Of a DNA stretch of 54,431 bases, positions 291 through 15,676 are shown one piece after another. Below the pieces are notes generated by a model. The model was not told where the DNA came from. It did not search any database and saw only the letters and a list, made by a program, of their open reading frames with translations. The stretch spans positions 1-54,431 of the forward strand of contig JAFVCK010000005.1 of NCBI GenBank assembly GCA_017479265.1, given 5' to 3'. Position 1 is the first letter of the stretch. Every line of letters begins with the position of its first letter. The position numbers and the translations under genes were made by a program. The stretch is from Bacteroidales bacterium. GTDB lineage: Bacteria > Bacteroidota > Bacteroidia > Bacteroidales > UBA932.

Positions 291-1553
291 CTATTCGGCC
301 TGGTGGACCTTGTGGGAGCGGCGGATGGCGGCAATGTTCTCGAGCTCGCTCTTGCTCTGTCCGTCTTCAAGTATGAGGATGGGCTTGGCATCGGGGGCGT
401 AGTGGAACTTGCGGACATTCTCCGCGTTGTTGTATCCGACCTTCTTGATGATGATGTTCTCCTCGGGCAGCACTATCTCGCCTTCCTTCTCTACGGGAAC
501 GGGATTGTACTTGAAGTTCTTGTCTATCATTATCAGCTTGCCGAAATCCGAGCCCGTGAGCCCTATGAGGTTCATCTTGAAGCCCGTCGCTATGGCCGTG
601 ATATGAATCGTGTCGCCGGCCTCGGGGTCGTCATCGTAGATAAGGCCTCTCTTGAACTTGCTGACGCTGCCCGTGTAGTTGCTTATCATGTTGCTGATTT
701 TGTTCAGCTCGTCCATGCGCAGGCCCTGGTCGTTCTGCCCGGCGGTAATGTTGATAAGCAGGTTCTTGCAGGTCTTGAGGTCGAAATCGTTGAGCAGGGG
801 AGACTCCAGTGCACCCTTCACCGCATCCTCCAGACGGTTGCGTCCGCTGCCGGTTCCGCAGCCCATCAGGGCCATGCCGCTGTTCTTCATCATGGTTTTC
901 ACGTCCTCGAAGTCCACGTTGATGTATCCGGGCTTGGTGATAATCTCGATTATGCCGCGGACCGCCGTCGCCAGCACCTCGTCTGCGCGGGGGAAAGCGT
1001 CCTGCACCAGCTGGTTGCCGAAAAACTCATAGAGCTTCTCGTTGTTGATAATCAGCAGGCTGTCCACGTTCTTCTCCAGTTCGTGTATGCCGTCCACGGC
1101 CTTGGACAGGAAATCGTCGCCCTCGTTCTTGAAAGGCAGGGTCACGACTCCTATAGTCAGTATGCCCCTGTCCTTGGCCATCTTGGCGATAACCGGTGAC
1201 GCGCCTGTGCCTGTGCCGCCGCCCATGCCGGCGGTAATGAACAGCATGCGGGTACCGGTGTTCAGAATCTTCTCGGCGATGATGTCCTGCGACTCAAGAG
1301 CGGCGTTGCGGGCCTTCACGGGGTCCGTACCTGCGCCCAGACCGCTGTCGCCGAGCTGGATCTTGATGGGGACATTGCTCTTGAGCAGAGCCTGCGAATC
1401 GGTGTTGCAGACGATGAAATTGCAACCCTGGATATGCTGGTTGTACATGTAGGTGACGGCATTGCAGCCACCGCCGCCAACGCCTATGACCTTGATCATC
1501 GAGTTCTCCGGAATCCAGTCATCCGGGGTGACGTTTATTTCAAAATTACTCAT
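291..1553 (-). CDS. ftsZ: cell division protein FtsZ
   Basis: Tubulin-like GTPase that polymerises at midcell into the Z-ring and recruits the divisome. The 420-residue protein has the nucleotide-binding GGGGCNAV (about 26-33), the tubulin signature GGGTGTG (111-117) and the catalytic T7 loop NVDFED (about 212-217). Its C-terminal end is short and basic (IRRSHKVHQAE), in the place of the conserved peptide that binds FtsA. It is the last gene of the dcw operon, and its start overlaps the end of ftsA by 8 nt, implying translational coupling. No clear terminator hairpin directly follows the stop. Length is normal for the family. Confidence 0.98.
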   Translation of the reverse strand: MSNFEINVTPDDWIPENSMIKVIGVGGGGCNAVTYMYNQHIQGCNFIVCNTDSQALLKSNVPIKIQLGDSGLGAGTDPVKARNAALESQDIIAEKILNTGTRMLFITAGMGGGTGTGASPVIAKMAKDRGILTIGVVTLPFKNEGDDFLSKAVDGIHELEKNVDSLLIINNEKLYEFFGNQLVQDAFPRADEVLATAVRGIIEIITKPGYINVDFEDVKTMMKNSGMALMGCGTGSGRNRLEDAVKGALESPLLNDFDLKTCKNLLINITAGQNDQGLRMDELNKISNMISNYTGSVSKFKRGLIYDDDPEAGDTIHITAIATGFKMNLIGLTGSDFGKLIMIDKNFKYNPVPVEKEGEIVLPEENIIIKKVGYNNAENVRKFHYAPDAKPILILEDGQSKSELENIAAIRRSHKVHQAE

Positions 1554-3006
1554 CGCTGTCAGAGTTTACCTTGTCATAGAAATTGCTTATAGTCTCTCCA
1601 ATGCTGTTCTTGATGGTCTCCCATCTGACCTTGAGCTTGTGCTCCTTCTTGGGCTTGCGGACGCTCTCGGGCTTGACCTCCACCTTGGGTACTTCCTCGT
1701 CGGAGAACAGGGCCGAAGGAGTCTCGACTGCCTGCTCGGGGGCCTCTTCGACTGCCTGAACCTCCTCTGCCACAGGCTCTTCCTCGTACTCTGGCCCGGC
1801 TTCTGGAGCCTCGCTCACGGGAGCGTCTATGCAGGAAGAAACGCCGTCGGCCTTGGCCTCAAGCAGCATTCCTATGGAAGTGGTGGCCGAAGTGTTGAAA
1901 ACGCCGGGGCAGCCGGAAGCCGAGAAGAGAGGTCTCGGCATGCCTGTCCTGACGGTGTATCCGGACATGTCCTTCACCATGGAAGAAAGGTTTCCGAGGG
2001 CAGCGCCGCCTCCGGTAATGACTATACCGCTGCGCAGGCTGTCCGCGAATCCGCTGCGCTCAATCTCATAGAGCAGTGCGTCTATGATTTCGCGGCAACG
2101 GGCTGTGATTATCTCGGAGAGGAAATAGACGGGAATCTGCTTGTAACCTTCCACGTCGCCCTCGATTTGCAGTATCTTCTCGCCCAGGTTCTGCAGGCGG
2201 TCGGGCTGGCAGGCTCCGAAGGCCATCTTGAGGTTCTCGGCGAGGGTCTCGGTGATGGAGCACTCGCTGCGTATGTCGGAAGTTATCACCTTGCCTCCGA
2301 AGGGGATGCAGGCGTAATGGCGAAGTATCTTGCCCTTGTATATGCTGACGGAAGTAGCGCCGCCGCCGAGGTCCACCAGGGCCACGCCGTTCTCCATTTC
2401 GTCCTCGGTGAGCACGGCCTTGGCTATGGAACCGGGGGTGAAATACTTGCGCGAAACCGCTATCTCGAGGTCGTTGAACACCTTGTCTATGGTCCTGACG
2501 GAAGAACGCCGGCCGATGAACAGCTTGAAATTGCCCTCGAAGGACTCGCTGATAACGCCGATTATGTCATTCTCTATCAGCTGGAAGTTCTCGTCCTCGG
2601 AATAGGACTGGGCTATGGCACCGTAGATTTGCTCCCTCTCGGGGTCGCGCAGGGGATACTGCTCGCGGGCTATGCTCTTGAGCGCCTCCACCTCCTCGAC
2701 GGTGATGCTCTCGTCGGGATTGCTCCTCGTGACCTTGGCGCAGTTGGACTCCTGGCGCACATCGCAGCGGGGCAGACCGACCACCACCTGCAATATCTTG
2801 ATTTTCAGTTCCTCTTCGGCCTCGGCAATGACCTCGCGGATGGGAACTCCCGCCTTCTGGGGATTGAATACCGCGCTGTTCCTTATGCCCTGCGAAGGCT
2901 TTTCGCGGTAGAATAGTACCTGGATGTCGTCACCCGACACCTTTGCCACGGTGAGGGCTATCTTTGACGACCCCAGGTCGACTGATGCTATGTACCTCTC
3001 TTCCAT
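1546..3006 (-). CDS. ftsA: cell division protein FtsA
   Basis: Actin-like ATPase that tethers FtsZ filaments to the inner membrane and helps recruit late division proteins. The 486-residue protein opens with the phosphate-1 motif VDLGSSKIA and has the second nucleotide motif LVDLGGGATS near residue 210. It ends in an amphipathic stretch (KVRWETIKNSIGETI region) suited to membrane binding. Before that tail is an acidic, Glu/Pro/Val-rich linker of about 80 residues, as seen in other Bacteroidota FtsA proteins. It lies between ftsQ (4-nt gap) and ftsZ (8-nt overlap). Confidence 0.97.
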   Translation of the reverse strand: MEERYIASVDLGSSKIALTVAKVSGDDIQVLFYREKPSQGIRNSAVFNPQKAGVPIREVIAEAEEELKIKILQVVVGLPRCDVRQESNCAKVTRSNPDESITVEEVEALKSIAREQYPLRDPEREQIYGAIAQSYSEDENFQLIENDIIGVISESFEGNFKLFIGRRSSVRTIDKVFNDLEIAVSRKYFTPGSIAKAVLTEDEMENGVALVDLGGGATSVSIYKGKILRHYACIPFGGKVITSDIRSECSITETLAENLKMAFGACQPDRLQNLGEKILQIEGDVEGYKQIPVYFLSEIITARCREIIDALLYEIERSGFADSLRSGIVITGGGAALGNLSSMVKDMSGYTVRTGMPRPLFSASGCPGVFNTSATTSIGMLLEAKADGVSSCIDAPVSEAPEAGPEYEEEPVAEEVQAVEEAPEQAVETPSALFSDEEVPKVEVKPESVRKPKKEHKLKVRWETIKNSIGETISNFYDKVNSDSDE

Positions 3007-3010
3007 ATTG

Positions 3011-3796
3011 TTACTTTGTTCTGCAGATTATTTGTCCGTCGTATTTCAGGTTAACGCTTCCGTAGTAGCCCGGCTCCTTTGCGGGAGCTATGTGGGTGTA
3101 ATACTTTTGTATGGCCGCCAGTTTCTCCTTGTAGGAGCAGGGATCTCCGAATATGAATTTTTCCTTGCCCTTCACGGGATACAGCACTATTTCTCCGTTC
3201 TTGTCCACGTTTATCTTCGGGAAGGCCCCCTTCCACTTGGGGTCGCTGTTCAGTATAGCGGCAAGGCCGGTGATATTCTCCAGCCATATCTTCTCGCTCT
3301 CGCTTGCAGGATATCCCTTGAACCCCGCTGGAACGCATAGCGGAATCTGTCCCTGCACCTGCGGGAGGGGCTTCTTGAAGCCGGGATGCTCGGGGAATAT
3401 GAAGCCGTTTGCATCGGCATAGTAGGAAGCGTCCGGGGCCTTGAACAACAGTGCTGGCTCCCTCTGGCCGATTTCCAGATGCAGCAGTCCGTCGGGGGTT
3501 ATGTAGGCCTGGGCCGAGGAAATGACTCCGACACCTGTCAAGATGTTTTCTATCTTCTTGAGATTCAGGCTGTCCAGAGGCTTTCCCAGATAGACTCCGT
3601 ACTCCTTCTCGAGCGTGGCCTTGACCTCGGAGGGCTTTATGAACGACACGCTGACGCTGTCCACGATGCATACGTCCAGCCCGGTGCAGGTCTTGAGCGC
3701 CCAGTCCTTGTCCATTCCTCTGGCGAGAATGCACAGCAGGGCCACCGTCCCCAGCAGGATGGCTGCAATCAAGGATATGCGAAGTCCCTTTTTCAT
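3011..3796 (-). CDS. ftsQ: cell division protein FtsQ
   Basis: Bitopic divisome protein linking early and late division factors in the periplasm. The 261 residues show a short cytoplasmic N-terminus, one membrane segment (about 7-25) and a periplasmic part. That part begins with a POTRA-like region (about 40-110, VSVSFIKPSEVKATLEKEYG onward) followed by the FtsQ beta domain. Sequence conservation is low, as usual for the family, so the call leans on the membrane topology and the position between murC (4-nt overlap) and ftsA. Confidence 0.88.
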   Translation of the reverse strand: MKKGLRISLIAAILLGTVALLCILARGMDKDWALKTCTGLDVCIVDSVSVSFIKPSEVKATLEKEYGVYLGKPLDSLNLKKIENILTGVGVISSAQAYITPDGLLHLEIGQREPALLFKAPDASYYADANGFIFPEHPGFKKPLPQVQGQIPLCVPAGFKGYPASESEKIWLENITGLAAILNSDPKWKGAFPKINVDKNGEIVLYPVKGKEKFIFGDPCSYKEKLAAIQKYYTHIAPAKEPGYYGSVNLKYDGQIICRTK

Positions 3797-5142
3797 AGGC
3801 GCTTCGAGAGCATTTGCGTTATGGGCCCGATGTATCTGTCCACGTTGCCGGCCCCGAAGGTCGCGAGCACGTCAACAGGCTCTTTTTCAAGATATTCCAT
3901 CAGTTCTTCCTTGCGCAGAAGCACCTTCTCGGGGCAGGTCACGTCCTTGAAAATGATTTCGGAAGTGACTCCGGGAATGGGCTCTTCGCGGGCAGGATAA
4001 ATGTCCAGCAGTATGAGTTTGTCCACCTTGCTGAGGGACGCGGCGAAGCCCTTCGCAAAATCCCTCGTGCGGGTGTAAAGGTGGGGCTGGAATATGGCCG
4101 TCAGTTTCCTTCCTGGGAATATGTCCCTCATTGAGCTTATGGCTGTGGAGAGCTCGTCCGGGTGATGGGCGTAATCGTCTATGTATGAAAGCTTTGGAGA
4201 GTTAAGGTGAATCTCCAGCCTCCTCTTGACTCCGCTGAACGAGCCTATGGCCTCCTTCACCTTCGCGCTCTCCAGGCCGTATGTGAGGCATATAGCAGCG
4301 GCGGCTATGGAATTTTCGGCATTGACCCATCCGGGCACTCCCACCCTCACCGAGGGGATTATGCCGCCGGGCCATTTGAGGTCGAAAACGAGATGTCCTA
4401 TTTCGTCGGGATGGGCGTCAAGGGCGCAGAAATCGGCCTCGGGATCAGTATAGCTGTATGTAAGTATCCTGGCCTTGGTGTCTGAAGGGCCGATTGGCAG
4501 TCCCTTCTTTATTATCAGGGTGCCGCTTGTCTGGGAGGCGAAATCCCTGAAAGCCTGCCTGTAGGCCTCCACGGTGCCGTATATGTCCAGATGGTCGGGG
4601 TCCATGGCGGTGATGACGGCAATGTCGGGGAAAAGCTGCAGGAAGGAACGGTCGAACTCGTCAGCCTCCGCCACTACTGTGGGGGTGTGGCTGACCAGCA
4701 TGTTGGTCGAGTAATTCTTGGATATGCCGCCTAGGAAGGCGCTGCATCCTTCGCCGCTCTGCGTGAGAATATGGGCCGTGAGAGTGCTTGTAGTGGTCTT
4801 TCCGTGTGTTCCGGCCACGGCGAGGCATCTCTGTCCCTTGGCTATTTCGCCCAGCACGCGGGAGCGCTTGAGCACCCGGTATCCATGCTCGTTGACATAT
4901 CGCAGCTCTCCAAGGTCGGCGGGGACTGCGGGGGTATAAACCACCAGGGTCTCGTCCTTGTCGGCGGGAATGAAGGAGCAGTCGTCGGTGTAGTGTACCG
5001 GTATTCCTTCGGCGCACAGCGCCTCCGTGAGCTCCGAAGGGGTCCTGTCGTAGCCTGACACTTCAAAGCCTTTGAAATGCCAGTAGCGTGCCAGGGCGCT
5101 CATTCCGATTCCGCCTATTCCTATGAAATATACGTTCTTCAT
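3793..5142 (-). CDS. murC: UDP-N-acetylmuramate--L-alanine ligase MurC
   Basis: Cytoplasmic Mur ligase that adds L-alanine to UDP-MurNAc using ATP, the first step of stem-peptide assembly. The 449-residue protein has the N-terminal UDP-binding motif GIGGIGMS (8-15) and the ATP-binding loop GTHGKTT (111-117). The Mur ligase centre and C-terminal domains follow, with the conserved DDYAHHPDE. It overlaps ftsQ by 4 nt downstream and murG by 4 nt upstream (ATGA junctions). Confidence 0.97.
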   Translation of the reverse strand: MKNVYFIGIGGIGMSALARYWHFKGFEVSGYDRTPSELTEALCAEGIPVHYTDDCSFIPADKDETLVVYTPAVPADLGELRYVNEHGYRVLKRSRVLGEIAKGQRCLAVAGTHGKTTTSTLTAHILTQSGEGCSAFLGGISKNYSTNMLVSHTPTVVAEADEFDRSFLQLFPDIAVITAMDPDHLDIYGTVEAYRQAFRDFASQTSGTLIIKKGLPIGPSDTKARILTYSYTDPEADFCALDAHPDEIGHLVFDLKWPGGIIPSVRVGVPGWVNAENSIAAAAICLTYGLESAKVKEAIGSFSGVKRRLEIHLNSPKLSYIDDYAHHPDELSTAISSMRDIFPGRKLTAIFQPHLYTRTRDFAKGFAASLSKVDKLILLDIYPAREEPIPGVTSEIIFKDVTCPEKVLLRKEELMEYLEKEPVDVLATFGAGNVDRYIGPITQMLSKRL

Positions 5143-6263
5143 ACCAGTTTATATACCTCCTGTGCTATTGTAAGGGCCGCATCCGGAAGCGCCAGCGCGG
5201 CTATGTTCTTCTCCATTGAAGCTATCTTGTCAGGGTCGGAAAGCAGCCCGAGGGCTGTCTTCATGAGTTTTTCCACTGCCTCTGAATCCTTGACCATCAG
5301 GGCGGCATCCTTGCGCACCAGCGCCATGGCGTTGTGGGTCTGATGGTCCTCCGCCACATTGGGTGAAGGCACGAAAATGGCCGCCTTGTGGGCTGCGCAA
5401 AGCTCTGATACAGTGGAGGCTCCGCTGCGGGAAATCACCACGTCGGCAGCAGCGTAGGCAAGGTCCATCCGGGCTATGAAATCGCTGTAGATTATGTCGG
5501 GAAGGCTGCGTCCCGCCATGAAAGCGTCTATCCCGGCCTTGTAGTATTTGCCGCACTGCCATATCAGCTGCACGCCTTCACCGCCGGGGCAACCTGCTTC
5601 TATCCAGGCCTTTACGGCCTTGTTGAGGGTGCCGCTGCCAAGGCTTCCGCCCACTATGAATACATGCTTCTTCCCGGGGTCGAGGCCGTATAGTTTCAGT
5701 CCATCCTCTTTCATCTGGGGGGTAGGGGGCACTATGGAAGAGCGTATGGGATTGCCGCTCATCACTATCCTGTCGGCAGGGAAGAACTTATCCATGCCTT
5801 CGTAGGCCACGCAGATGCTGCCTGCCTTCTTGGAAAGCAGCTTGTTGGTGAGTCCCGCAAATCCGTTCTGCTCCTGGATGAGGGTGGGAATGCCCTCCTT
5901 CTGTGCAGCCCTCAGCAGGGGAGCCGATGCGTATCCGCCCACGCCGATGGCAATGTCAGGCTTGAATTCCCTTATCACCTTGCGTGCCATGCGAAGGCTC
6001 TGGACTACCTTGAAGGGCACTTTTAGGTCGCCTATCAGGTTGCGCAGGGTCAGCTGCCTCTGGAGCCCGGTGATGGGCAGGCCGACTATCTTGTAGCCTG
6101 CCGCAGGGACCTTTTCCATTTCCATCTTGCCCTTGGCCCCGACAAAGAGAATCTCCGTTTCGGGGTTGAGTTCCTTGAGCTTGTTCGCAATGGAAATGGC
6201 CGGGAAGATATGGCCTCCCGTACCGCCGCCGCTTATTATCGCACGCAATTTCTTGTATTCCAT
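5139..6263 (-). CDS. murG: UDP-GlcNAc:undecaprenyl-PP-MurNAc-pentapeptide GlcNAc transferase MurG
   Basis: Peripheral inner-membrane glycosyltransferase (GT28) that converts lipid I to lipid II. The 374 residues carry the N-terminal glycine-rich loop GGTGGHIFP (13-21) and the C-terminal UDP-GlcNAc-binding region (SRSGASTVSELCA with the following HKAAIFVPSP). The length matches the family. It is placed directly after ftsW (2-nt gap) and before murC (4-nt overlap), the usual dcw order. Confidence 0.97.
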   Translation of the reverse strand: MEYKKLRAIISGGGTGGHIFPAISIANKLKELNPETEILFVGAKGKMEMEKVPAAGYKIVGLPITGLQRQLTLRNLIGDLKVPFKVVQSLRMARKVIREFKPDIAIGVGGYASAPLLRAAQKEGIPTLIQEQNGFAGLTNKLLSKKAGSICVAYEGMDKFFPADRIVMSGNPIRSSIVPPTPQMKEDGLKLYGLDPGKKHVFIVGGSLGSGTLNKAVKAWIEAGCPGGEGVQLIWQCGKYYKAGIDAFMAGRSLPDIIYSDFIARMDLAYAAADVVISRSGASTVSELCAAHKAAIFVPSPNVAEDHQTHNAMALVRKDAALMVKDSEAVEKLMKTALGLLSDPDKIASMEKNIAALALPDAALTIAQEVYKLV

Positions 6264-6265
6264 AA

Positions 6266-7636
6266 CTATATCAAATCCAAATCGTTAAGACTTTCTCTCA
6301 CCTCGTCGTCAGTCTCTATGATGGGGGCTTTCTCTTCGGTTTCCTTCTCCACCCTGCGCTTTGCGCCCCGGCTAATGGAAAGTATGATTCCGAAGGCTAT
6401 GCTGAAGCATAGGAAGGATGTCTTTCCGTCGCTTATCATGGGCAGGGTCTGTCCGGTCAGGGGGCCTATGTCCACGTTGACCAGCATGTGCATGAGGGCC
6501 TGCCCGGAAATCAGTATCACCAGGCCCGCTATCGCGCTCTTTGCAAAGTTGTCCTCGCAGTTCCTCGCTACGATGGAGCCTCTTGCCAGCAAGGCCGCGT
6601 AAAGTATTATAATCAGAAGGGCTCCGAGCAGTCCGTATTCCTCAATTATGAAGGCGAAGGTGTAGTCGGCGAAAATCACGGGCACTACGTATTTCTGGGT
6701 GCTCCTGCCCGGGCCCTTGCCTAGGAAAAGGTTGCCTTCGCTGGCCGCCAGCTTGGCTCCCAGGGGCTGCTGGGTGCGTCCCAGCACCACGTCGAACTGG
6801 GGAGTGCCTACAGCCTCTACCAGTTCCTGCTCGGGGGAACGGCCCACACGCTTGACTGCGCTGCCGACATGGTCGAAGTATTTGCCGCCGGAGGCGAAGT
6901 GTATTCCTATGCACAGCCCGAGCAGTCCTACGGCCCCGAGGAACACCGGAATGAGTTCCCTGACCTTTATGCCGCCTATGACTATAGTGACGAACATGAG
7001 ACCGCCAATGAACAGGGCGCTGGACATGCTGCCTCCAAGTATCATCACGGTTATTATGCCCATGGGGATATAGAGGTAGAACCATTTCTTGCCCATGTCG
7101 GTGGTGAACCAACTTAGGAACTTGACGTTCTTGAACTTGTACACCAGGCTGAAGGCCTGTTTCCCTTCGCTGTCTTCCTTGTAGGCGTTCACGGCCCAGG
7201 CTATGTACATGACCATGGCCACCTTGACCACTTCGAACACATGCAGCTGGAGGCCGAATATGTTGATCGTCCTCCAGGCCTGGTTGATGTACTCGGCCTT
7301 TACGTGGGGCAGCTTGATGTGCAGGTCCAGATACGCCAGCAGTGCGAACGAGAGCAGGAATCCGAACTTTGCCGCAAGCTCCAGCACCTTTATGTTCTTT
7401 ATATTGTAAATGCCTACTATGCAGAGAGTTCCGAGAATGGCAACTATCAGGTGCTTCTGTATGATAGCCTCCCTGGTGGTCCTGTTTGCGAGGGCCAGCA
7501 GGGAAGTGGAGGAAGAAATAGCGATTATGGAAAGCATGATGAGGGTCAGGGCGATCATCCATATCACCCTGTCTCCTTCCACGTTTTCCATCAGGCCCGG
7601 CAGGTTGCTGAAGCGGCTTTTCTTCGTCTTTTCCAT
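6266..7636 (-). CDS. ftsW: SEDS-family glycosyltransferase FtsW
   Basis: Polytopic inner-membrane SEDS peptidoglycan polymerase acting with FtsI at the septum. The 456-residue protein has about ten hydrophobic segments starting near residue 27, and the long periplasmic loop with conserved charged positions (GRSPEQELVEAVGTPQFD region). Its GPLTGQTLPMISDGKTSF motif lies near the last membrane helices. The cytoplasmic tail is basic, then acidic. FtsW rather than RodA is chosen from the dcw position between murD (1-nt gap) and murG. Confidence 0.95.
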   Translation of the reverse strand: MEKTKKSRFSNLPGLMENVEGDRVIWMIALTLIMLSIIAISSSTSLLALANRTTREAIIQKHLIVAILGTLCIVGIYNIKNIKVLELAAKFGFLLSFALLAYLDLHIKLPHVKAEYINQAWRTINIFGLQLHVFEVVKVAMVMYIAWAVNAYKEDSEGKQAFSLVYKFKNVKFLSWFTTDMGKKWFYLYIPMGIITVMILGGSMSSALFIGGLMFVTIVIGGIKVRELIPVFLGAVGLLGLCIGIHFASGGKYFDHVGSAVKRVGRSPEQELVEAVGTPQFDVVLGRTQQPLGAKLAASEGNLFLGKGPGRSTQKYVVPVIFADYTFAFIIEEYGLLGALLIIILYAALLARGSIVARNCEDNFAKSAIAGLVILISGQALMHMLVNVDIGPLTGQTLPMISDGKTSFLCFSIAFGIILSISRGAKRRVEKETEEKAPIIETDDEVRESLNDLDLI

Positions 7637-7637
7637 A

Positions 7638-8972
7638 TTACAGGTTCCTTACAGCTTCCTTGAATTTCTCGCCTCTGTCCTCATAGCACTTGAACAGGTC
7701 GAAACTGGCGCAGCAGGGGCTCAGCAGCACCACGTCTCCGTCCGCCGCCATCTTGCTGGCCGCCTTTACGGCCTCGTCCGCGGAAAGGGTGTCCACCAGG
7801 GGCTTGCCCATTTTTCCGAAGGCCGCGTGTATCTTCGCGTTGTCCACGCCGAGGCAGACTATGCCCTTGACCTTTTCCTTCACCAGGGAGTCCAGGACGC
7901 TGTAGTCGTTGCCCTTGTCAGTTCCGCCCACTATCCACACCACGGGCTTTTTCTGGCACTCCAGGGCGTACCATGCCGCATCCACGTTGGTAGCCTTGGA
8001 GTCGTTGATATACAGCACTCCGCCCACGCTCATGACGGGCTCCAGACGGTGCTCTATGGTCTTGAAGGAGCGCAGAGACTCGCGGATTACGGCATTGTCT
8101 ATTCCCGTTGCCTTGGCTGCGAGGGCCGCTGCCATGGAGTTGTATATGTTGTGCTTTCCGCCCAGGGCCAGCTCCTCCAGGTAGATGTCGCACTCGTCCT
8201 TTTCGTAGCGGACCTTTATCTTGTCGCCGCTCAGGAATGCGCCCTGCTCCACTTCGCCCTTCTGGGTGAAAGGCAGTTTCTTGGCACGGGTCACTATCTT
8301 GTCCAGGTGGTTGATGGTAATCTCGTCGTCGGAGTCGAATATGAAGCAGTCCTCGGGGCGCAGGTTGCGCGTGATGCGGAACTTGGCGCGGACGTAGTTC
8401 TCCATATTGTGGTCGTAGCGGTCCAGATGGTCGGGGGTAATGTTGGTTATGATGGCTATGTCGGGACGGAAGTCATAGCAGTTGTCCAGCTGGAAACTGC
8501 TGATTTCCAGTACGTAATAGTCGAAATGCTCGGTGGCCACCTGATAGGCGTAGCTCTTGCCTATGTTGCCGCCCAGGCCCACGTTCAGCCCGGCCTGCTG
8601 GAGCAGGTAGTATATGAGCGAAGTGGTGGTGGTCTTGCCGTTGCTGCCGGTTATGCATATCTTGCGGGCGGAGTCGTAGCGGGAGGCGAACTCTATCTCC
8701 GAAATGATATGTATTCCCTTGTCCTCTATCTTGCGTATCATGGGCACGGTGGAGGGTATACCGGGGCTCTTGACCACCTCGTCGGCATTCAGGATGAGGT
8801 CCTCGCTGTGGCCTCCCTGCTCGAAGGGAATGTCCCACTTCCTTAGTTCTTCGACATATTTGGGGTCTATGTTCCCCTTGTCGGAGAGGAACACTTCGAA
8901 TCCTTTGACCTTTGCCAGTACGGCGGCTCCTACGCCGCTTTCAGCACCACCTAAAACAACAATCCTTGACAT
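7638..8972 (-). CDS. murD: UDP-N-acetylmuramoyl-L-alanine--D-glutamate ligase MurD
   Basis: Cytoplasmic Mur ligase that adds D-glutamate to UDP-MurNAc-L-Ala. The 444 residues have an N-terminal Rossmann-like segment (VVLGGAESGVGAA), the ATP loop TGSNGKTTT (about 108-116) and the conserved C-terminal LSPCCASFDLF with SFD. The last motif is typical of MurD rather than the other Mur ligases. It sits 3 nt after mraY and 1 nt before ftsW. Confidence 0.97.
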   Translation of the reverse strand: MSRIVVLGGAESGVGAAVLAKVKGFEVFLSDKGNIDPKYVEELRKWDIPFEQGGHSEDLILNADEVVKSPGIPSTVPMIRKIEDKGIHIISEIEFASRYDSARKICITGSNGKTTTTSLIYYLLQQAGLNVGLGGNIGKSYAYQVATEHFDYYVLEISSFQLDNCYDFRPDIAIITNITPDHLDRYDHNMENYVRAKFRITRNLRPEDCFIFDSDDEITINHLDKIVTRAKKLPFTQKGEVEQGAFLSGDKIKVRYEKDECDIYLEELALGGKHNIYNSMAAALAAKATGIDNAVIRESLRSFKTIEHRLEPVMSVGGVLYINDSKATNVDAAWYALECQKKPVVWIVGGTDKGNDYSVLDSLVKEKVKGIVCLGVDNAKIHAAFGKMGKPLVDTLSADEAVKAASKMAADGDVVLLSPCCASFDLFKCYEDRGEKFKEAVRNL

Positions 8973-8975
8973 ATT

Positions 8976-10271
8976 CTACCTCAGTTTGAGCAGAGCCAGC
9001 GTGGCCACTGCCAGTATTATTCCTACTATCCAGAAACGGGCTACTATCTTGGCCTCGGGTATGGCATGCACCGGGTTCTTGATAAGGGCCGGAATGCCTT
9101 CTTTCTGGTAATGATGATGGAGGGGGGACATCTTGAAGATGCGCCTGCCTTCTCCGTATTTCTTCCTTGTATATTTGAAATATCCCCTCTGGAGCAGCAC
9201 TGAAAGGCTCTCAACCAGGAATATTCCGCACAGTATGGGCAGCAGCAGTTCCTTGCGGATGAGAATTGCGCTCACTCCTATGATTCCTCCTATGGTGAGG
9301 GAGCCGGTGTCACCCATGAACACCTGGGCAGGATATGAATTGTACCAGAGGAATCCTATCAAGGCCCCGACGAAGGCGGACATGAATATGGCCACCTCTC
9401 CCGTGCCCGGTATGAACATGATATTCAGGTAATTGGAATCAATGAGGTTGCCGCTCAGTCAGGCCAGTATGCCTATCACCACACCGACTATTGCCGAGGT
9501 GCCTGCGGACAGTCCGTCCATTCCGTCGGTGAGGTTGGCTCCGTTGGAGCAGGCTGTAATCACCAGGATTATCATCAGCACGTAGATGGCCCACTTGGTG
9601 TACCAGCCCCATTTGCCCTTGAAGGGGGAGAGGACCTTGTAGTCGAACTCGTGGTCCTTCACGAAGGGAATGGTGGTCTTGGTGCTCTTCACCACGTCCT
9701 CTGTCTTGTATCTGCCCGAAGTGATGACCCTTTCGGAGTTGACGTTCACGTCGGTGCTCTCCTGGGAGATATATACGGAGGTGTCGGCCACCTTCTCGCG
9801 GACCACTATGTCGGGGCTGTAGCATACGGTGAGGCCGATGACGAAGCCCAGGGCTATCTGGAGGACGAGCTTCATCCTCTCGCTCATGCCTTCCTTGTTG
9901 TGCTTGAAGACCTTGATATAGTCGTCCGTGAATCCCATTGCGCCGCACCATACGGTGGTGATGATAAGCAGCAGGGCGTAGATGTTGCGCAGGTTGCAGA
10001 ACAGAAGGGCGCTTATCAGTATGGCCAGGATTATTATGACTCCGCCCATGGTGGGAGTGCCTTTCTTCTGGAGCTGCCCTTCCAGTCCGAGGTCGCGTAT
10101 GGTCTCGCCTATCTGCTTGACCCTCAGGAAGTCTATGAGTTTCTTTCCGACAATGAGGGAAATCAGCATGGCGGTAACGCTCGCGAGCATGGCCCTGAAG
10201 GAAAGGTAGTTCATCAGCCTTGCTCCGGGGATGTCAAACTGCTGCAGGTATTCGAACAGATGGTATATCAT
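8976..10271 (-). CDS. mraY: phospho-N-acetylmuramoyl-pentapeptide transferase MraY, interrupted by an in-frame TGA
   Basis: Integral membrane enzyme that makes lipid I from UDP-MurNAc-pentapeptide and undecaprenyl phosphate. The full reading frame is 432 codons, but codon 271 is TGA (9459-9461), so it appears as two pieces (9459-10271 and 8976-9419) in the same frame. Both sides are well conserved: [16 protein letters not shown] and [12 protein letters not shown] before the stop, [12 protein letters not shown] and HHHYQKEG after it. The stop falls in an aromatic position (A-stop-LSGN), where a Trp (TGG to TGA) or Tyr is expected. An insert at about residues 165-225 is usual for Bacteroidota. 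Since mraY is essential and single-copy, a base-call error or a readable stop is more likely than a dead gene. Confidence 0.92.
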
Positions 10272-10274
10272 AGT

Positions 10275-11789
10275 TTATAAGGTCTTGAATATTTCTTGTA
10301 CAATCTCTTTTTCGTCGAAATGGCGCTTTTCGGTGCCGATAATCTGGTAGTTCTCATGACCTTTGCCGGCCAGGAGTATGGCTGAGCCTTCGGGAGAGAG
10401 CATCATGGCCGTGCGTATGGCCTCCTTCCTGTCGGCTATGAAAACGGTCTTGGACAGCCCGGCAGGGCTGAATCCCGCCTTTATGTCCTCCATTATGTCC
10501 TCGGTGCGCTCGGTGCGGCTGTTGTCCGAGGTCACGAAAATGCGGTCCGCGTATTTCTCTGCTATGGCCGCCATTTCGGGGCGCTTGGTCCTGTCCCTGT
10601 CTCCTCCGCAGCCGAAAAGGCATACGAGGGTGCGTCCCCCGGCTACTTCACGAAGGGTCTTGAGCACGTTCTCCAGGGCATCCGGGGTGTGGGCATAGTC
10701 TATCACTACGGACAGGTCGCGGGCTCCGCGTATGGTCTCGAGCCTGCCGGGGGCGGCCTCCAGCTTGCTCAGGGACACCAGCGCCTCTTCCTCGGAAGCT
10801 CCGGCGAGAATGGCGGCGGTGTATATAGCGAGCAGGTTGTAGGCGTTGTGGCGGCCCGTGAGCCTGGTCCAGACATCGTGTCCGTCAATTCTCAGCTGCA
10901 TGCCGTCGAAGCCCTGCTCCAGGATGCGGCAACTGTGGTCTGCCATGCTCCTGCATGAATATGTGACCACGGTGGCCTTGGTGTTCTGCACCATCACCCT
11001 GCCGTTCTTGTCGTCTATGTTGATTACGGCGTATGCCGTCCGGGGCAGGTTGTCGAAGAACAGTTTCTTGCAGCGCAGGTACTCCGCGAAGGTCTTGTGG
11101 TAGTCCAGATGGTCGTGGGTGAGATTCGAGAATATGGCAATCTTGAACTCCAGGCCCCTGATCCTTTCCTGCTGCACTCCTATGGAGCTGACCTCCATGA
11201 AGCAGTATTCGCAGCCCTCGTCCACCATGCTGGCCATCAGCGAGTTGATGGTGATGGGGTCTGCCGTGGTGTTGGCGGTTTCCAGCCTCCTGGGACCTAC
11301 GTAGTTGGCTATGGTGGAGAGCAGTCCGCAGTTGTATCCAAGGCCCATGAACAGGTGATACAGCAGGGTCACCGTGGTGGTCTTGCCGTTGGTGCCCGTG
11401 ATGCCTACGAGGGTGAGCTTGCGGGAAGGATGGCCATGGAAGTTGTCGGCGATCAGGGCCTCGGCGACCCTTGTGTCAGCCACCTTTACGAGGGTGAGCC
11501 TTTCAATTGCCTCTATGCGTCCGCTCTTGGCCTCAAGGTCGTTGGCGGGGCTTATCTTGGCCAGCTGCGCGGCCAGGGCGAGCTCGTCTTCATATACTAT
11601 GGCCTGGGCTCCGTTCTGCACGGCGGCGCAGATAAAGTTGTGTCCGTCGCTGGCGAAGCCTCTTTCTGCGATGAACAGGCTGCCCCTTCCCGCGGCGCGG
11701 GAATCACGGCATACGCTCCCGATGCCCACATCGTCCCGTCCGCGTATCGCCAGTACGGCTACATTCTCAAGTATATCTCTCAGTATCAT
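10275..11789 (-). CDS. murE: UDP-MurNAc-tripeptide synthetase MurE
   Basis: Cytoplasmic Mur ligase that adds the third, diamino residue of the stem peptide. The start is ATG at 11789, which overlaps the ftsI stop by 4 nt; a longer in-frame extension to 12104 merely shadows ftsI. The 504-residue protein carries TGTNGKTTT (131-139). The substrate-selecting motif reads DNSR (about 422-425) instead of DNPR of meso-diaminopimelate-adding enzymes. The Arg that contacts the substrate carboxylate is retained, so diaminopimelate specificity remains likely. Confidence 0.96.
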   Translation of the reverse strand: MILRDILENVAVLAIRGRDDVGIGSVCRDSRAAGRGSLFIAERGFASDGHNFICAAVQNGAQAIVYEDELALAAQLAKISPANDLEAKSGRIEAIERLTLVKVADTRVAEALIADNFHGHPSRKLTLVGITGTNGKTTTVTLLYHLFMGLGYNCGLLSTIANYVGPRRLETANTTADPITINSLMASMVDEGCEYCFMEVSSIGVQQERIRGLEFKIAIFSNLTHDHLDYHKTFAEYLRCKKLFFDNLPRTAYAVINIDDKNGRVMVQNTKATVVTYSCRSMADHSCRILEQGFDGMQLRIDGHDVWTRLTGRHNAYNLLAIYTAAILAGASEEEALVSLSKLEAAPGRLETIRGARDLSVVIDYAHTPDALENVLKTLREVAGGRTLVCLFGCGGDRDRTKRPEMAAIAEKYADRIFVTSDNSRTERTEDIMEDIKAGFSPAGLSKTVFIADRKEAIRTAMMLSPEGSAILLAGKGHENYQIIGTEKRHFDEKEIVQEIFKTL

Positions 11790-13741
11790 TTCGTTATATC
11801 CCAATTTGGCATTGTCCCCGTGGCGTAGAGGGTCTCTCCGCCCTTCTCGTTTATAGCATACAGTTTGTCCACAATCTCCCTGAAGGTCATGGCCGGGGTG
11901 GTACCTCCGTAGAATATCTCCCTGTCCAGCTTGGAGTAGATTACCACAATGGCGCTGTACAGGGGCTCGTCTGCGGGGAAGAAGCCCACGAACGTGGCCT
12001 GGTACTGCTTGCGGCCCTGGAAGTCCTCGTAGGGGGTGCGCCTCTTGACCTTCTTGGGGTCGAGCACTATCCTCGCGGTTCCGGTCTTGCCGGCGACGGG
12101 CCATTTGGCTCCCGAGAGCCTTCTCTTTCCTGTACCTTCCTCCGTGACGCTGCGAAGGGCCCTCGTGAGGGTGTCCGCAGTGGCCTTGGAGCAGATGGAG
12201 CCGTTGAGTATTCCCTGTCCGCGTTTCTTGACCACCTGTCCGTTCTCCTCTATGCTTTCCACCAGATAGGGCTTCATCATGCAGCCCTTGTTGGCTATGG
12301 CATTGTAGAACGTGACTATGTGAAGGGGCGTTTCGGCCACCGAATAGCCGATTGCCACGCTGCCCAGGTCGGTCCCGCTCCAGGTCTTGGAGTCAGGGTC
12401 GGGAAGGGCTGGGGAGGCCAGTCCGTCGAGGTCGAAGTCCCATGCCTCTCCGAGCTTGTACATGTACAGTTTGTCCATCATCTGCTTGGGGTTGTGCCCG
12501 TAGTTGTCTATGGCAAGCTTGCGGAATACATAGTTGGACGATATCTCGAAGCCGTGCAGCACCGAAATGCGGTTGGTATTGTTCTTCCTTTCGTAGTCGT
12601 ATATATGGTCGTCGGGGGAGAAACCCTTGATGACTCCGTGGTTGGTGGGAATGGTGGACTCCAGGGTCACCTTCTTGTCTTCCAGCAGGCTCATCAGGGT
12701 GGTTGTCTTGAACACCGAACCGGGCTCTCCGGCGCGTCCTATCGCCATGTTGAGGGTTTCTCTCAGCCTTCCGGAGGTGGAATCCCTCAGGAGGTTGACC
12801 ATGGCCCTTATGGCTCCTGTCTTTACGTCCATGATTACCACGCAGCCGCCCTCTATCTTGGGGTTGTCCTCTATCTGGTGGCGCAGGGACTTGTCAGCAA
12901 TGTCCTGGATGTCAACGTCTATGGTGGTGCGTACATCCCTGCCGTCGGCGGCCTTGACGAAGGTGCTGTCCCAGTTGTGGATACGCTTTCGCTTGTCGGT
13001 GAGCTTCATCCATTCGTAGCCTTCCTTGCCGTGGAGTTCGTAATTGTACTTGCCTTCGATTCCCAGGCTCACCGGCTCCTTGGTATTGGTCTTGACGTAG
13101 CCTATGGTGCGGTTCGCAAGGTCGCCGTAGGGGTACTGGCGGGTGTCGTATTTCTCTACTATCATTCCGCTCTTGTACTGGCCTTCGCAGAAAAGGGGCA
13201 GGGCCTTGACCTTCTGCAGGGTCTCATGGTCTATCCTGCGACCTATCCTTACATATTTGCCGCCCCTGGCGCGGTTCTCCTTTATAAGGTTGTACCAGTT
13301 CTGGGCGCTTCCGCCGTATATTTCGGACAGTCCCACCGAGAGGGCCTTGGCCTTTTCCATCCATTCTCCTTCCTTGTCCTTTATCTCCTTGGGCTCCTTG
13401 CCCTTCCTAAGGGCCTTCTCGTTGTATTCCTGTATGTGTTTGACCTCGCTGCGGAAGGCTTCCTTCTGCACGGTGCAGTCCATGAATACCTGGTACAGGG
13501 GCGTGGACATGGCCAGCAGACGGCCGTCGTCGGCCAGTATGGAACCTCTCTGAGGCTCAAGCGTTTCCTTTATGTCGTGGGGGCGGATATAGGATGCGAT
13601 GGAGGGGTCCGGCTTCCAGCAGCACTTCAGCCAGACTATGCGGGCGAGTATCAGGCACCCGACCGTCAGGAACAGCAGATAGAACAGCCATAGCACTATG
13701 GTTATTCCATCCCTTTTCTTTCCTGTTTTCTCCTTTTCCAT
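11786..13741 (-). CDS. ftsI: septal peptidoglycan transpeptidase FtsI (class B PBP)
   Basis: Membrane-anchored D,D-transpeptidase cross-linking septal peptidoglycan with FtsW. The 651 residues include one N-terminal membrane helix (about 13-34) and a dimerisation/pedestal domain starting with the conserved RGSILAD. In the penicillin-binding domain, the nucleophile motif is SVFK (Ser342, Lys345), followed by SSN (401-403) and KTG (552-554). No PASTA domains are present. It lies 3 nt after the ftsL-like gene and overlaps murE by 4 nt. Confidence 0.96.
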   Translation of the reverse strand: MEKEKTGKKRDGITIVLWLFYLLFLTVGCLILARIVWLKCCWKPDPSIASYIRPHDIKETLEPQRGSILADDGRLLAMSTPLYQVFMDCTVQKEAFRSEVKHIQEYNEKALRKGKEPKEIKDKEGEWMEKAKALSVGLSEIYGGSAQNWYNLIKENRARGGKYVRIGRRIDHETLQKVKALPLFCEGQYKSGMIVEKYDTRQYPYGDLANRTIGYVKTNTKEPVSLGIEGKYNYELHGKEGYEWMKLTDKRKRIHNWDSTFVKAADGRDVRTTIDVDIQDIADKSLRHQIEDNPKIEGGCVVIMDVKTGAIRAMVNLLRDSTSGRLRETLNMAIGRAGEPGSVFKTTTLMSLLEDKKVTLESTIPTNHGVIKGFSPDDHIYDYERKNNTNRISVLHGFEISSNYVFRKLAIDNYGHNPKQMMDKLYMYKLGEAWDFDLDGLASPALPDPDSKTWSGTDLGSVAIGYSVAETPLHIVTFYNAIANKGCMMKPYLVESIEENGQVVKKRGQGILNGSICSKATADTLTRALRSVTEEGTGKRRLSGAKWPVAGKTGTARIVLDPKKVKRRTPYEDFQGRKQYQATFVGFFPADEPLYSAIVVIYSKLDREIFYGGTTPAMTFREIVDKLYAINEKGGETLYATGTMPNWDITK

Positions 13742-13744
13742 CCT

Positions 13745-14095
13745 TTACTTCAATTTGTCGGCGGGCTTTTCGGGGAAACGCACCTCGGACCCTTTGTCTT
13801 CCAGCAGTTTCTCCAGTCCAGTCATCCTGTTCAGGCTCATCATCTGCACGGTTTTCTGTGCATGGTATATCTTGATGTCGCTGAGCTCCGCCTTGTTCCT
13901 CTCAACCTCAAGCTGCGTGCTCTCCGACTTGATTCCTATCCATATCAGCATCCATACGAGGAAGAACAGATAGAGTATGTGCGGGAAGAAACGCTCTACC
14001 CGCAGGCGCATGAGGAACTCGCCCTTGAGAATGGCGATTCCGCTCTGTGCCAGGCCTTTGCCCAGGTTCTTCCACGTCAGGTCCTTCCAGTTCAT
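13745..14095 (-). CDS. ftsL: FtsL-like divisome membrane protein
   Basis: Small bitopic protein of 116 residues with a cytoplasmic basic N-terminus (about 1-38), one membrane helix (about 39-55) and a periplasmic helical, coiled-coil-like segment (about 56-105). Its topology and position between rsmH (4-nt overlap) and ftsI (3-nt gap) match FtsL, which bridges FtsQ/B and FtsW/I. Sequence identity to FtsL families is low, as usual for Bacteroidota, so the name rests on topology and synteny. Confidence 0.8.
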   Translation of the reverse strand: MNWKDLTWKNLGKGLAQSGIAILKGEFLMRLRVERFFPHILYLFFLVWMLIWIGIKSESTQLEVERNKAELSDIKIYHAQKTVQMMSLNRMTGLEKLLEDKGSEVRFPEKPADKLK

Positions 14096-15003
14096 ATCTT
14101 TTCAGCTATCCTAAGTTTTGCGCTTCTTGCCCTCGTGTTGGAGGCTATCTCGCTCTCGGAGGGCAGTATCGGCTTCTTGCTGAACGCCTTCAAGGGGGAG
14201 AGCAGCCTTCCGTACATGTCCTTTTCTTCGCGTCCTTCGGCGTTGCCGCTGCGGATGAAATTCTTCACCATCCTGTCCTCCAGGGAATGGTAGGTAATCA
14301 CGACCAGCCTTCCTCCAGGTTTCAAAGTCCGTATGGCACCTTCCAGCATCTTTTCCAGGGAACGCATCTCGTGGTTGACTTCGATGCGCAGGGCCTGGTA
14401 CACCTTTGCCAGCCACTTGTGGGCAGCGTATGAGGGAGTGGCCTTCTGTAGGGCCTCGTCCAGCTGGGCAGTGGTGCTGATGGGCCTTGCCGAGGCTATC
14501 AGCCTGGCCGCCTTCCCCGCGTTCTCCACCTCTCCATAGACCCTCAGTATCCTCTCTAAATCCTCTGTGGCATAGTTGTTTACAACGTCTGCCGCCGTTG
14601 TCGGGGCTTCGGTGTTCATCCTCATGTCCAGAGGTGCGTCATAGCGGAAGGAGAAGCCCCTGTCCGCCGTGTCGAACTGGTGGGATGACACCCCAAGGTC
14701 TGCCAGTATCCCGTCCACCTGCCAGTCCTCGCTGCCGTTTTCCCAGGCCTGGAGCCTTGCATGGTTCTCAAGGAAGCGGAAGTCCGAGCGGACCAGGGTG
14801 AGGCGGGGGTCGTCGGGACGGTTCCCGAGTGCGTCAATGTCACGATCGAAGGCGATGACTTTCCCCTCCGTTGATAAGCGTGAAAGAATTCCGGCGGTGT
14901 GACCACCGCCTCCGAATGTGGCATCGATGTATGTACCTGATATATTGGTAATCAATGCGTTGACGCTTTCGTCAAGCAGTACCGGCGTATGATATTCCGA
15001 CAT
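14092..15003 (-). CDS. rsmH: 16S rRNA (cytosine1402-N4)-methyltransferase RsmH
   Basis: SAM-dependent methyltransferase (MraW) that modifies C1402 of 16S rRNA in the P site. The 303-residue protein begins with YHTPVLLDESV and has the SAM-binding loop DATFGGGGHT (about 28-36). It also has the conserved ILADLGVSSHQ and RGFSFRYDAPLDMRM motifs, and RLVVITYHSLEDR near the C-terminus. It is the second gene of the dcw operon, 11 nt after mraZ. Confidence 0.97.
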   Translation of the reverse strand: MSEYHTPVLLDESVNALITNISGTYIDATFGGGGHTAGILSRLSTEGKVIAFDRDIDALGNRPDDPRLTLVRSDFRFLENHARLQAWENGSEDWQVDGILADLGVSSHQFDTADRGFSFRYDAPLDMRMNTEAPTTAADVVNNYATEDLERILRVYGEVENAGKAARLIASARPISTTAQLDEALQKATPSYAAHKWLAKVYQALRIEVNHEMRSLEKMLEGAIRTLKPGGRLVVITYHSLEDRMVKNFIRSGNAEGREEKDMYGRLLSPLKAFSKKPILPSESEIASNTRARSAKLRIAEKI

Positions 15004-15014
15004 TGTCCTCCCTC

Positions 15015-15467
15015 CTATAACTGCTGCGAGAGTTCCGTGGCGAGGGCGGTGAAATCTTCCTGGCTGATGATGGACTTTTCATATTCGTCCCTGGCCCAGA
15101 TTTCAATCTTGTAGTCGTTGCCCACGAAAACTACTTCCTTGTCAATGCCTATGAGTGTCTGGAGGTCGCGGGGAATGCTGATGCGGCCGAGCTTCCCGTC
15201 GGGTTCGACGAGGGCGCGGTTCTGCATGTAACCTCTCCAGAATGCAGCGTGACGCGGATTGAGGGAGTTGAGTTTGGATTTGATGCCTTCGCTCTGGCTT
15301 TGCCACTGCTCGAAGGTGTACATTTCGAGGCATCGTGCGTGAATGTCCTTGTGAAGCACAAAGCGCATGTCTCCGCCTTCGGGCATGAGGCTCTTCAGGG
15401 GCGACGGGAAGACCACGCGGCCTTTGTCGTCCACTTTTGCTGAATATGTCCCGATAAACGATACCAT
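15015..15467 (-). CDS. mraZ: transcriptional regulator MraZ
   Basis: First gene of the dcw cluster and its probable autoregulator; in characterised bacteria MraZ binds short direct repeats upstream of itself. The start is ATG at 15467, giving 150 residues beginning MVSFIGTYSAKVDDKGRV; the open frame upstream to 15623 has no family match and crosses the promoter region. The two SpoVT/AbrB-like halves are visible (about 7-55 and 85-130, each with a DxxGR-type motif: DDKGRVVFP and DGKLGRISIP). Upstream lie a -7 box (15517-15524) and a 10-bp-periodic repeat (15534-15580), a good operator candidate. Confidence 0.95.
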   Translation of the reverse strand: MVSFIGTYSAKVDDKGRVVFPSPLKSLMPEGGDMRFVLHKDIHARCLEMYTFEQWQSQSEGIKSKLNSLNPRHAAFWRGYMQNRALVEPDGKLGRISIPRDLQTLIGIDKEVVFVGNDYKIEIWARDEYEKSIISQEDFTALATELSQQL

Positions 15468-15516
15468 TTTTTTGTCAATATTTTCCGGTCTCCCGGCTTC
15501 TTTCACGCTTGGGTTA

Positions 15517-15524
15517 CAAAGGTA
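15517..15524 (-). promoter_or_regulatory. -7 promoter box of the dcw operon
   Basis: The minus strand reads TACCTTTG, matching TAnnTTTG, 49 nt upstream of the mraZ start. No TTG is found at the usual spacing. Instead the -33 area is occupied by the periodic GTGGAA repeats at 15534-15570, so a bound regulator could compete with polymerase. Confidence 0.5.
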
Positions 15525-15533
15525 GTAAAAATT

Positions 15534-15580
15534 TTCCATTTTATTCCACTCGTTTACAATTTTTTCCACTAATTTTTCAA
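15534..15580 (-). promoter_or_regulatory. 10-bp-periodic repeats, putative MraZ operator
   Basis: On the plus strand the heptamers TTCCATT (15534), TTCCACT (15544), TTACAAT (15554) and TTCCACT (15564) follow each other with exact 10-bp spacing. A fifth, weaker one (TTTTCAA) begins at 15574. On the minus strand the consensus is ArTGGAAnnn. MraZ in other phyla binds 10-bp-spaced direct repeats carrying GTGG- or AGTG-type cores in front of mraZ. The position directly upstream of the -7 box of this mraZ fits that role. Assignment to MraZ is inference. Confidence 0.6.
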
Positions 15581-15625
15581 CACCCCTTTTCAAAGCCCTT
15601 GCAGGGCGTATTTTTTTCTGCAAGA

Positions 15626-15656
15626 TTGTGATTGATTAAAAATTTTTCTATATTTG
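15626..15656 (+). promoter_or_regulatory. promoter of the beta-helix/deformylase operon
   Basis: TTG at 15626-15628, a 20-bp spacer and TATATTTG at 15649-15656 match the Bacteroidota housekeeping consensus. The predicted start lies about 15 nt before the ATG at 15677. It is divergent from the mraZ promoter. Confidence 0.65.
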
Positions 15657-15676
15657 GCCATCTAAAACAACAGGAT

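Follow-up and report, generated by a model that had tools for sequence, protein, structure and literature searches.

The closest described counterparts of the locus presented here are the MraZ-binding sites of other bacteria. In Burkholderia cenocepacia, the site consists of four 7-nt repeats separated by 3-nt spacers; MraZ binds the fragment in EMSA, and a single promoter drives the genes from mraZ to ftsZ (excerpts of PMC7761207). According to the same excerpts, MraZ is thought to bind as an octameric ring, and mycoplasmas are named as a case in which it activates. The Mollicute site is made up of AAAGTG[T/G] direct repeats (Fisunov 2016, via excerpts of PMC8475190), and in Mycoplasma genitalium the mraZ promoter is the only MraZ site (excerpts of PMC8475190). 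These excerpts further state that MraZ represses the dcw genes in M. genitalium, and likewise in E. coli, and that M. genitalium without MraZ contains more mraW and ftsZ mRNA. A survey of the open-access literature (titles, beginnings of abstracts and passages) found, among the papers listed, neither a Bacteroidota MraZ site nor a layout change of the kind reported below.

The window analysed here, by which we mean the whole 54,431-nucleotide stretch of Bacteroidales DNA, carries a dcw cluster of 13 genes on one strand. Its first gene is mraZ (15015..15467, minus strand, ATG at 15467-15465), encoding a protein of 150 aa with two MraZ domains. Behind it, at 291..15003 on the minus strand, come rsmH, ftsL, a gene for a PBP in the place of FtsI, murE, mraY (split in two), murD, ftsW, murG, a Mur ligase gene, a gene without a Pfam match, ftsA and ftsZ; the Mur ligase is assigned as murC and the gene without a match as ftsQ, both by position. 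The mraY frame is split by an in-frame TGA at 9459-9461 (minus strand) into 9459-10271 and 8976-9419, both of which match parts of mraY, and this TGA may be an assembly error, a real interruption or a case of recoding.

PF02381 matches the window's MraZ twice over the cut-off (E 3.1e-9 and 8.0e-5), and MraZ chains in the PDB match it over most of its length (best E 3e-9); the protein searches used 15015-15470, which is one codon too long at the start. Its TIGR00242 score of 77.2 bits falls under the NCBIfam cut-off of 98.35, and the other five NCBIfam MraZ models likewise score it under their cut-offs. Judged by its sequence, it is a divergent member of the family, encoded by the first gene before rsmH.

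In front of mraZ, four TGGAA/TGTAA repeats span 15570-15534 on the minus strand in steps of exactly 10 bp. The predicted MraZ box 1, AGTGGAA (15564..15570), lies farthest from mraZ and is conserved in alignment A1; box 2, ATTGTAA (15554..15560), has G or T as its third base among relatives; box 3, AGTGGAA (15544..15550), ends 19 bp before the -7 box, at the would-be -33 place; and box 4, AATGGAA (15534..15540), is nearest to mraZ. Their cores start at 15569 (GTGG), 15559 (TTGT), 15549 (GTGG) and 15539 (ATGG). The -7 box of the mraZ/dcw promoter, TACCTTTG (15517..15524, minus strand), begins 15 bp past the last core. With at least three direct repeats of a GTG-type core at 10-bp spacing, the array has the make-up by which MraZ operators are defined.

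An earlier note on this DNA had listed the repeats as the plus-strand heptamers TTCCATT, TTCCACT, TTACAAT and TTCCACT, starting at 15534, 15544, 15554 and 15564, just upstream of the dcw -7 box, and this description is borne out in both respects. Its weak fifth repeat at 15574 did not hold up. The TG of that word (minus-strand TTGAA) lies 11 bp, not 10, from the TG of the first repeat, and because it is out of register and forms part of a conserved element, TGTTGAAAA, we do not regard it as a fifth MraZ box.

The array is the sole occurrence of at least three TGKAA words at 10-bp steps in the 54-kb window. It is also the only one in the window's own assembly (2.04 Mb, 89% complete), where it yields two overlapping three-copy matches, and the backwards control yields none. 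No Rfam family matched 15300-15900 at its gathering score, and a structured RNA at the array was rejected on that basis. On its far side, the intergenic region holds a -7-like box on the plus strand, TATATTTG (15649-15656). It precedes by 20 bp the ATG (15677) of a divergent reading frame of 512 aa, for which Pfam gave no match at 1e-5. Between the divergent promoters lies a terminator-like hairpin, GCCCTTGCAGGGC (15595-15607, plus strand), with a T-run; 0.4 such hairpins are expected from shuffles.

For the comparison across relatives, a protein search gave 77 loci, 75 of which were read after dropping a Firmicute (L077) and a fragment (L078). To these were added 80 upstream regions fetched from other genomes of the order, as well as 40 regions chosen among the best-scoring matches listed in other orders and classes and 29 of the 30 loci that the same phylum search had returned; the outer sets comprise 25 regions from the class outside the order and 44 from outside the class. 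A recognisable MraZ start was present in 217 of the 224 regions (none in L067, L068, L135, L141, L148, L192 and L196), and L089, which duplicates L235, was excluded. For the close set, the tests cover 72-73 regions, depending on the minimum length. Counts and p values throughout ignore the relatedness of the sampled genomes.

Close relatives mostly carry TGGAA/TGTAA boxes at 10-bp steps followed by TAnnTTTG. The period also emerges from a motif-free test that asks for three 6-mers sharing one lag, with five or more of their six columns identical and two or more of these G/C: a lag of 10 was found in 33/72 close regions, 46/75 of the order, 12/25 of the class and 17/44 of other classes, while each other lag from 6 to 15 was found in only 0-1 regions. 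Scanning with a loose core, [AGT]TG[GT], for at least three copies at 10-bp steps, we found arrays in 72/73 close relatives, 63/75 other genomes of the order, 23/25 regions from other orders of the class and 27/44 from other classes, against 0.2-0.4% of shuffled sequences. Fewer than three cores are present in 12 of the 75 mraZ-bearing genomes of the order and 17 of the 44 in other classes. Applied to E. coli K-12 as a positive control, the same scan recovered three GTGGG repeats at 10 bp, GTGGGAAATT, GTGGGGCAAA and GTGGGAATAA.

The position of the array is conserved along with its period. The earlier note had proposed to check whether relatives keep the 10-bp motif at the same distance from the -7 box, and they do so at 15-16 bp in 72/72 array-bearing close regions (15 bp in 58 and 16 bp in 14) and in 43/63 of the order set, the remainder of which show other distances or no box. 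Column statistics, for which 69 close and 55 order regions qualified by having both an array and a -7 box at 15-16 bp, and in which TG is partly invariant by this choice, show that the DNA farther upstream of the array is hardly conserved.

The boxes themselves differ between clades. At the position following TG[GT], 281 of the 287 close-set boxes carry A. For the order, the tally at this position is 92 T, 78 G, 58 A and 9 C; for the remaining members of the class it is 45 T, 16 G, 6 C and 4 A, and for other classes 57 G, 17 T, 5 A and 5 C. The consensus of the order set is AAAGTGG at 10 bp, with boxes of the AAAGTGGKAA type. GTGGAA, put forward in the earlier note as the Bacteroidota version of the site, is thus the form used in the window's own clade, others having GTGGK or GTGGG, and by these counts it is a clade variant of a widespread GTGGN box. 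The DD[KR]GR motif is present in the MraZ of 72/72 close relatives carrying an array. Covariation between the residue in D-x-K-G-R and the base after TGG looked suggestive at first, but was not found for TGGA outside the window's own clade (p 0.05 and 0.13).

The array is tied to the presence of mraZ, in whose promoter region it lies. The gene occurs in 120 of the 148 genomes of our order sample; the 20 listed of the 28 genomes without it were searched for rsmH, and 18 had that gene. None of these 18 carries an array of at least three cores before rsmH, compared with 63 of 75 genomes with mraZ (Fisher p 1.2e-11, uncorrected for relatedness). In some of the mraZ-less genomes (7-8 of 18), the array is gone and an element farther upstream, described below, is kept.

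Genome-wide searches point to the same link. Two models were used, R1 built from the window and 35 of the 69 close regions and R2 from all 55 order regions. Across the 148 genomes, R2 gave 103 matches at E <= 1e-3, of which 92 lie just upstream of mraZ on the same strand and 2 lie elsewhere; the other 9 come from genomes for which no mraZ place was listed (one of them, G439, has no mraZ). Among 20 mraZ-bearing genomes whose upstream DNA had not been fetched before, 16 matched R2 at mraZ at E <= 1e-3 and two more matched weakly (E 0.005 and 0.029); the last two have two weak boxes (G330) and a degenerate row (G371). R2 undercounts, since it missed a genome with three perfect boxes (G344). In the window's own genus, R1 matched 34/37 genomes at E <= 2.1e-10, the next listed matches being at 3.8e-5 or worse. 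A strict test for an array together with an MraZ start was passed by 26 of the 30 loci returned with these R1 matches; of the four others, L266 and L282 have four loose cores before an MraZ start, L286 has two, and L276 has no MraZ start. In the phylum sample, 16 genomes gave no mraZ match, and 9 of them fall in a single family, f25, which is part of another class; no member of that family is listed with a match.

Further sites of a possible MraZ regulon were sought among secondary matches. Seven such places were read, namely the R1 matches C77:22856, C32:28237 and C3:94525 in the window's own genome and those in G465 and G447, and the R2 matches in G439 and G415; two consecutive cores at 10 bp are the most that any of them shows, and the match in the mraZ-less G439 lies inside a long reading frame. 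We therefore know of one predicted site per genome among the places read; many weak matches exist at E above 1e-3, and a wider regulon using different boxes may exist. One of the best secondary R1 matches in the own genome (G000:C32:28237-28283, L288) has two copies of TGTGGAA and one TTGGAAA, unevenly spaced, ahead of a -7-like box. It lies in front of a frame that we take to be ParA-like from its KGGVGKTT.

The promoter layout at these arrays differs within the phylum. The absence of a -33 box claimed for the window holds among its relatives, as TTTG ending 18-22 bp before the -7 box occurs in 0/71 close relatives (TTG alone in 6) and at the corresponding place in 1/59 and 0/11 regions of the other sets (TTG in 12 and 2). 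The weight placed on this absence has to be reduced, since the -7-like promoters of genomes without mraZ are also without TTTG: a -7-like box precedes rsmH in 12 of the 18 that lack mraZ, and at the -33 place of these, TTTG occurs in 0/12 and TTGAC in 1/12. This suggests that the promoter does not need MraZ.

In other classes, TTGAC lies 18-46 bp before the first core in 31 of 44 regions (60 bp searched); it was not found in 12, and one region is without an array of two. The position of TTGAC implies that the array in these classes covers the -10/start region, as in E. coli. By contrast, only 6 of 159 array-bearing regions of the window's class have TTGAC at that place, and the window array stands upstream of the -7 box instead of downstream of a -10 box and overlapping the start site. 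Placement relative to the -10 box is a matter of position and not of binding. What is new, as read from these sequences, is that the class has its boxes upstream of the -7 box, as opposed to after TTGAC in E. coli and most other-class genomes.

Conservation, the peak at lag 10 and the absence of the array without mraZ make it very probable that the array is an MraZ operator, and for this statement taken by itself our confidence is high. The operator claimed in the earlier note is strongly supported by the shared place, the 10-bp spacing, the distance to the -7 box, the co-loss, the 92 of 103 R2 matches at mraZ and the E. coli control. An MraZ oligomer would read the TGG(A) boxes, one at each helical turn for four turns, from a single face of the DNA. 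Encoded by the first dcw gene, MraZ would bind directly upstream of the -7 box and cover the -33/upstream region needed by RNA polymerase, and this occlusion would repress mraZ and its co-transcribed genes in a negative autoregulation. The joint reading, in which the array is the operator and bound MraZ also represses its own operon, appears probable, with appreciably less confidence than the operator alone. Against it can be held the genomes with fewer than three cores, the use of such upstream places by activators too, the activator role described for mycoplasmas, the TIGR00242 score below cut-off, and the failure of the residue-base covariation outside the own clade.

The same operator could act with the opposite sign, MraZ at the -33 position replacing the missing -33 box and activating the dcw promoter. 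The boxes do precede the -7 box, by 15-16 bp in 72/72 close and 43/63 order regions, TTTG is rare at the -33 place in all three sets (0/71, 1/59 and 0/11; TTG in 6, 12 and 2), and activation is the role described for mycoplasmas in the excerpts of PMC7761207. However, the small sample of 12 relatives that lack mraZ and have a -7-like box contains no case of TTTG and one of TTGAC, so that loss of MraZ is not, as a rule, offset by gain of a -33 box, and M. genitalium without MraZ has more, not less, mraW and ftsZ mRNA (excerpts of PMC8475190). We consider activation the main rival but the less likely sign, with perhaps a minor share of the probability.

Readings in which the array is not an MraZ site fare far worse. 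The DnaA box consensus is TTWTNCACA, and a row of DnaA boxes is suggested by TGTGGAAAA, which fits this consensus reversed and has 65 occurrences in 71 close upstream regions; for 56 matches to the 9-mer set, the start is the base just ahead of the first core. Yet boxes 2 to 4 do not fit, either in the window or in the close-set consensus, the rest of the order has AAAGTGGKAA-type boxes without a DnaA fit, and the array is absent without mraZ. The box-by-box fit and this absence make a DnaA row very unlikely. Slightly less credible still are phased A-tracts whose 10-bp period would bend the DNA or form an UP element with no protein reading TGG. A-runs do follow the boxes at 10 bp, and among close relatives the conservation of the As behind TGG equals that of TG. 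The motif-free test, however, requires repeated G/C and nevertheless peaks at lag 10, the A columns of the order set vary more than TG (itself partly invariant by choice of the set), many other-class genomes keep the 10-bp period of GTGGG without A-runs, and curvature would not explain co-loss with mraZ. Least credible is that the array arose by chance or serves the divergent gene at 15677 (plus strand), with which it shares AT-rich intergenic DNA and which has its own -7-like box TATATTTG. A site of that gene is unlikely by position. The array is unique in the assembly and tied to the mraZ -7 box in relatives, the DNA farther upstream is hardly conserved, and arrays occur in 0.4% or less of shuffles. 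In our view, conservation refutes this reading.

Separate from the MraZ boxes, a DnaA-box-like element, TGTTGAAAA (15574..15582, minus strand), starts 13 bp before the first core. Reversed (TTTTCAACA), it is one base off the DnaA 9-mer TTWTNCACA. The element takes the form TTAT[CT]AACA in the order and, on the reverse strand, TGTTGAWAA in the close set, and both precede the array. TTAT[CT]AACA occurs 57 times in 75 upstream regions of 150 bp, compared with 1.5 in dinucleotide shuffles and 1 backwards, and 18 times in the remaining 57.5 kb of the same loci. For 48 forward-strand TTWTYAACA words, a -7-like box is present at a distance of 25-75 bp; this distance is 46-48 bp for 12 of them and 56-58 bp for 27. 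A related 9-mer is found in 8/18 rsmH upstream regions of mraZ-less genomes, seven of these lying 48 or 59-62 bp before a -7-like box, and in 1/44 regions from other classes.

Such words are likewise frequent before dnaA, where 27 upstream regions of the order hold 19, compared with 1.2 in shuffles, 2 backwards and 1 in 65 kb of gene and downstream DNA; the four of those 27 from the window's own genus hold no box of the 9-mer set. For other families of the class, there are 4 in 3 dnaA upstream regions of f3, and 0 in 10, 0 in 5 and 0 in 1 of f4, f6 (one dropped as short) and f5, respectively. Neither the own assembly nor the listed places of G226 (100 of 189) showed an origin-like cluster of boxes. 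DnaA is a candidate factor for the element. As a tentative and rather speculative extension, the Bacteroidia dcw promoter would have a DnaA-type box on a fixed helix face, separated from the -7 box by some 47 or 57 bp, with the MraZ array between, so that MraZ and a replication-linked factor would compete or cooperate. If true, two inputs at one dcw promoter would tie division to replication initiation; the element is in any case a lead of its own towards a replication-division link.

The array offers an exact and testable candidate operator for a cluster of 13 genes of cell division and wall synthesis, which it precedes. Beyond this genome, the 10-bp MraZ array now extends across classes of a phylum in which control of the division operon seems little studied. 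The difference in layout amounts to a change of promoter architecture inside one phylum and may have altered the mode of the same regulator.

Compared with E. coli, the locus shares direct repeats before mraZ at exactly 10 bp and in the same sense, there as three GTGGG copies and here as four TGGAA/TGTAA boxes. The first E. coli core, however, lies 37 bp after the start of TTGAC, whereas the window array is upstream of a Bacteroidetes-type -7 box. The site of B. cenocepacia, as the excerpts of PMC7761207 give it, resembles the window array in its four repeats at a 10-bp period and differs in lying downstream of the -10 box over the start site. The Mollicute AAAGTGK (excerpts of PMC8475190) is nearly identical to the order-set consensus AAAGTGG at 10 bp, although the M. 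genitalium site, according to these excerpts, precedes a four-gene cluster with another promoter type and the window's clade has GTGGAA boxes.
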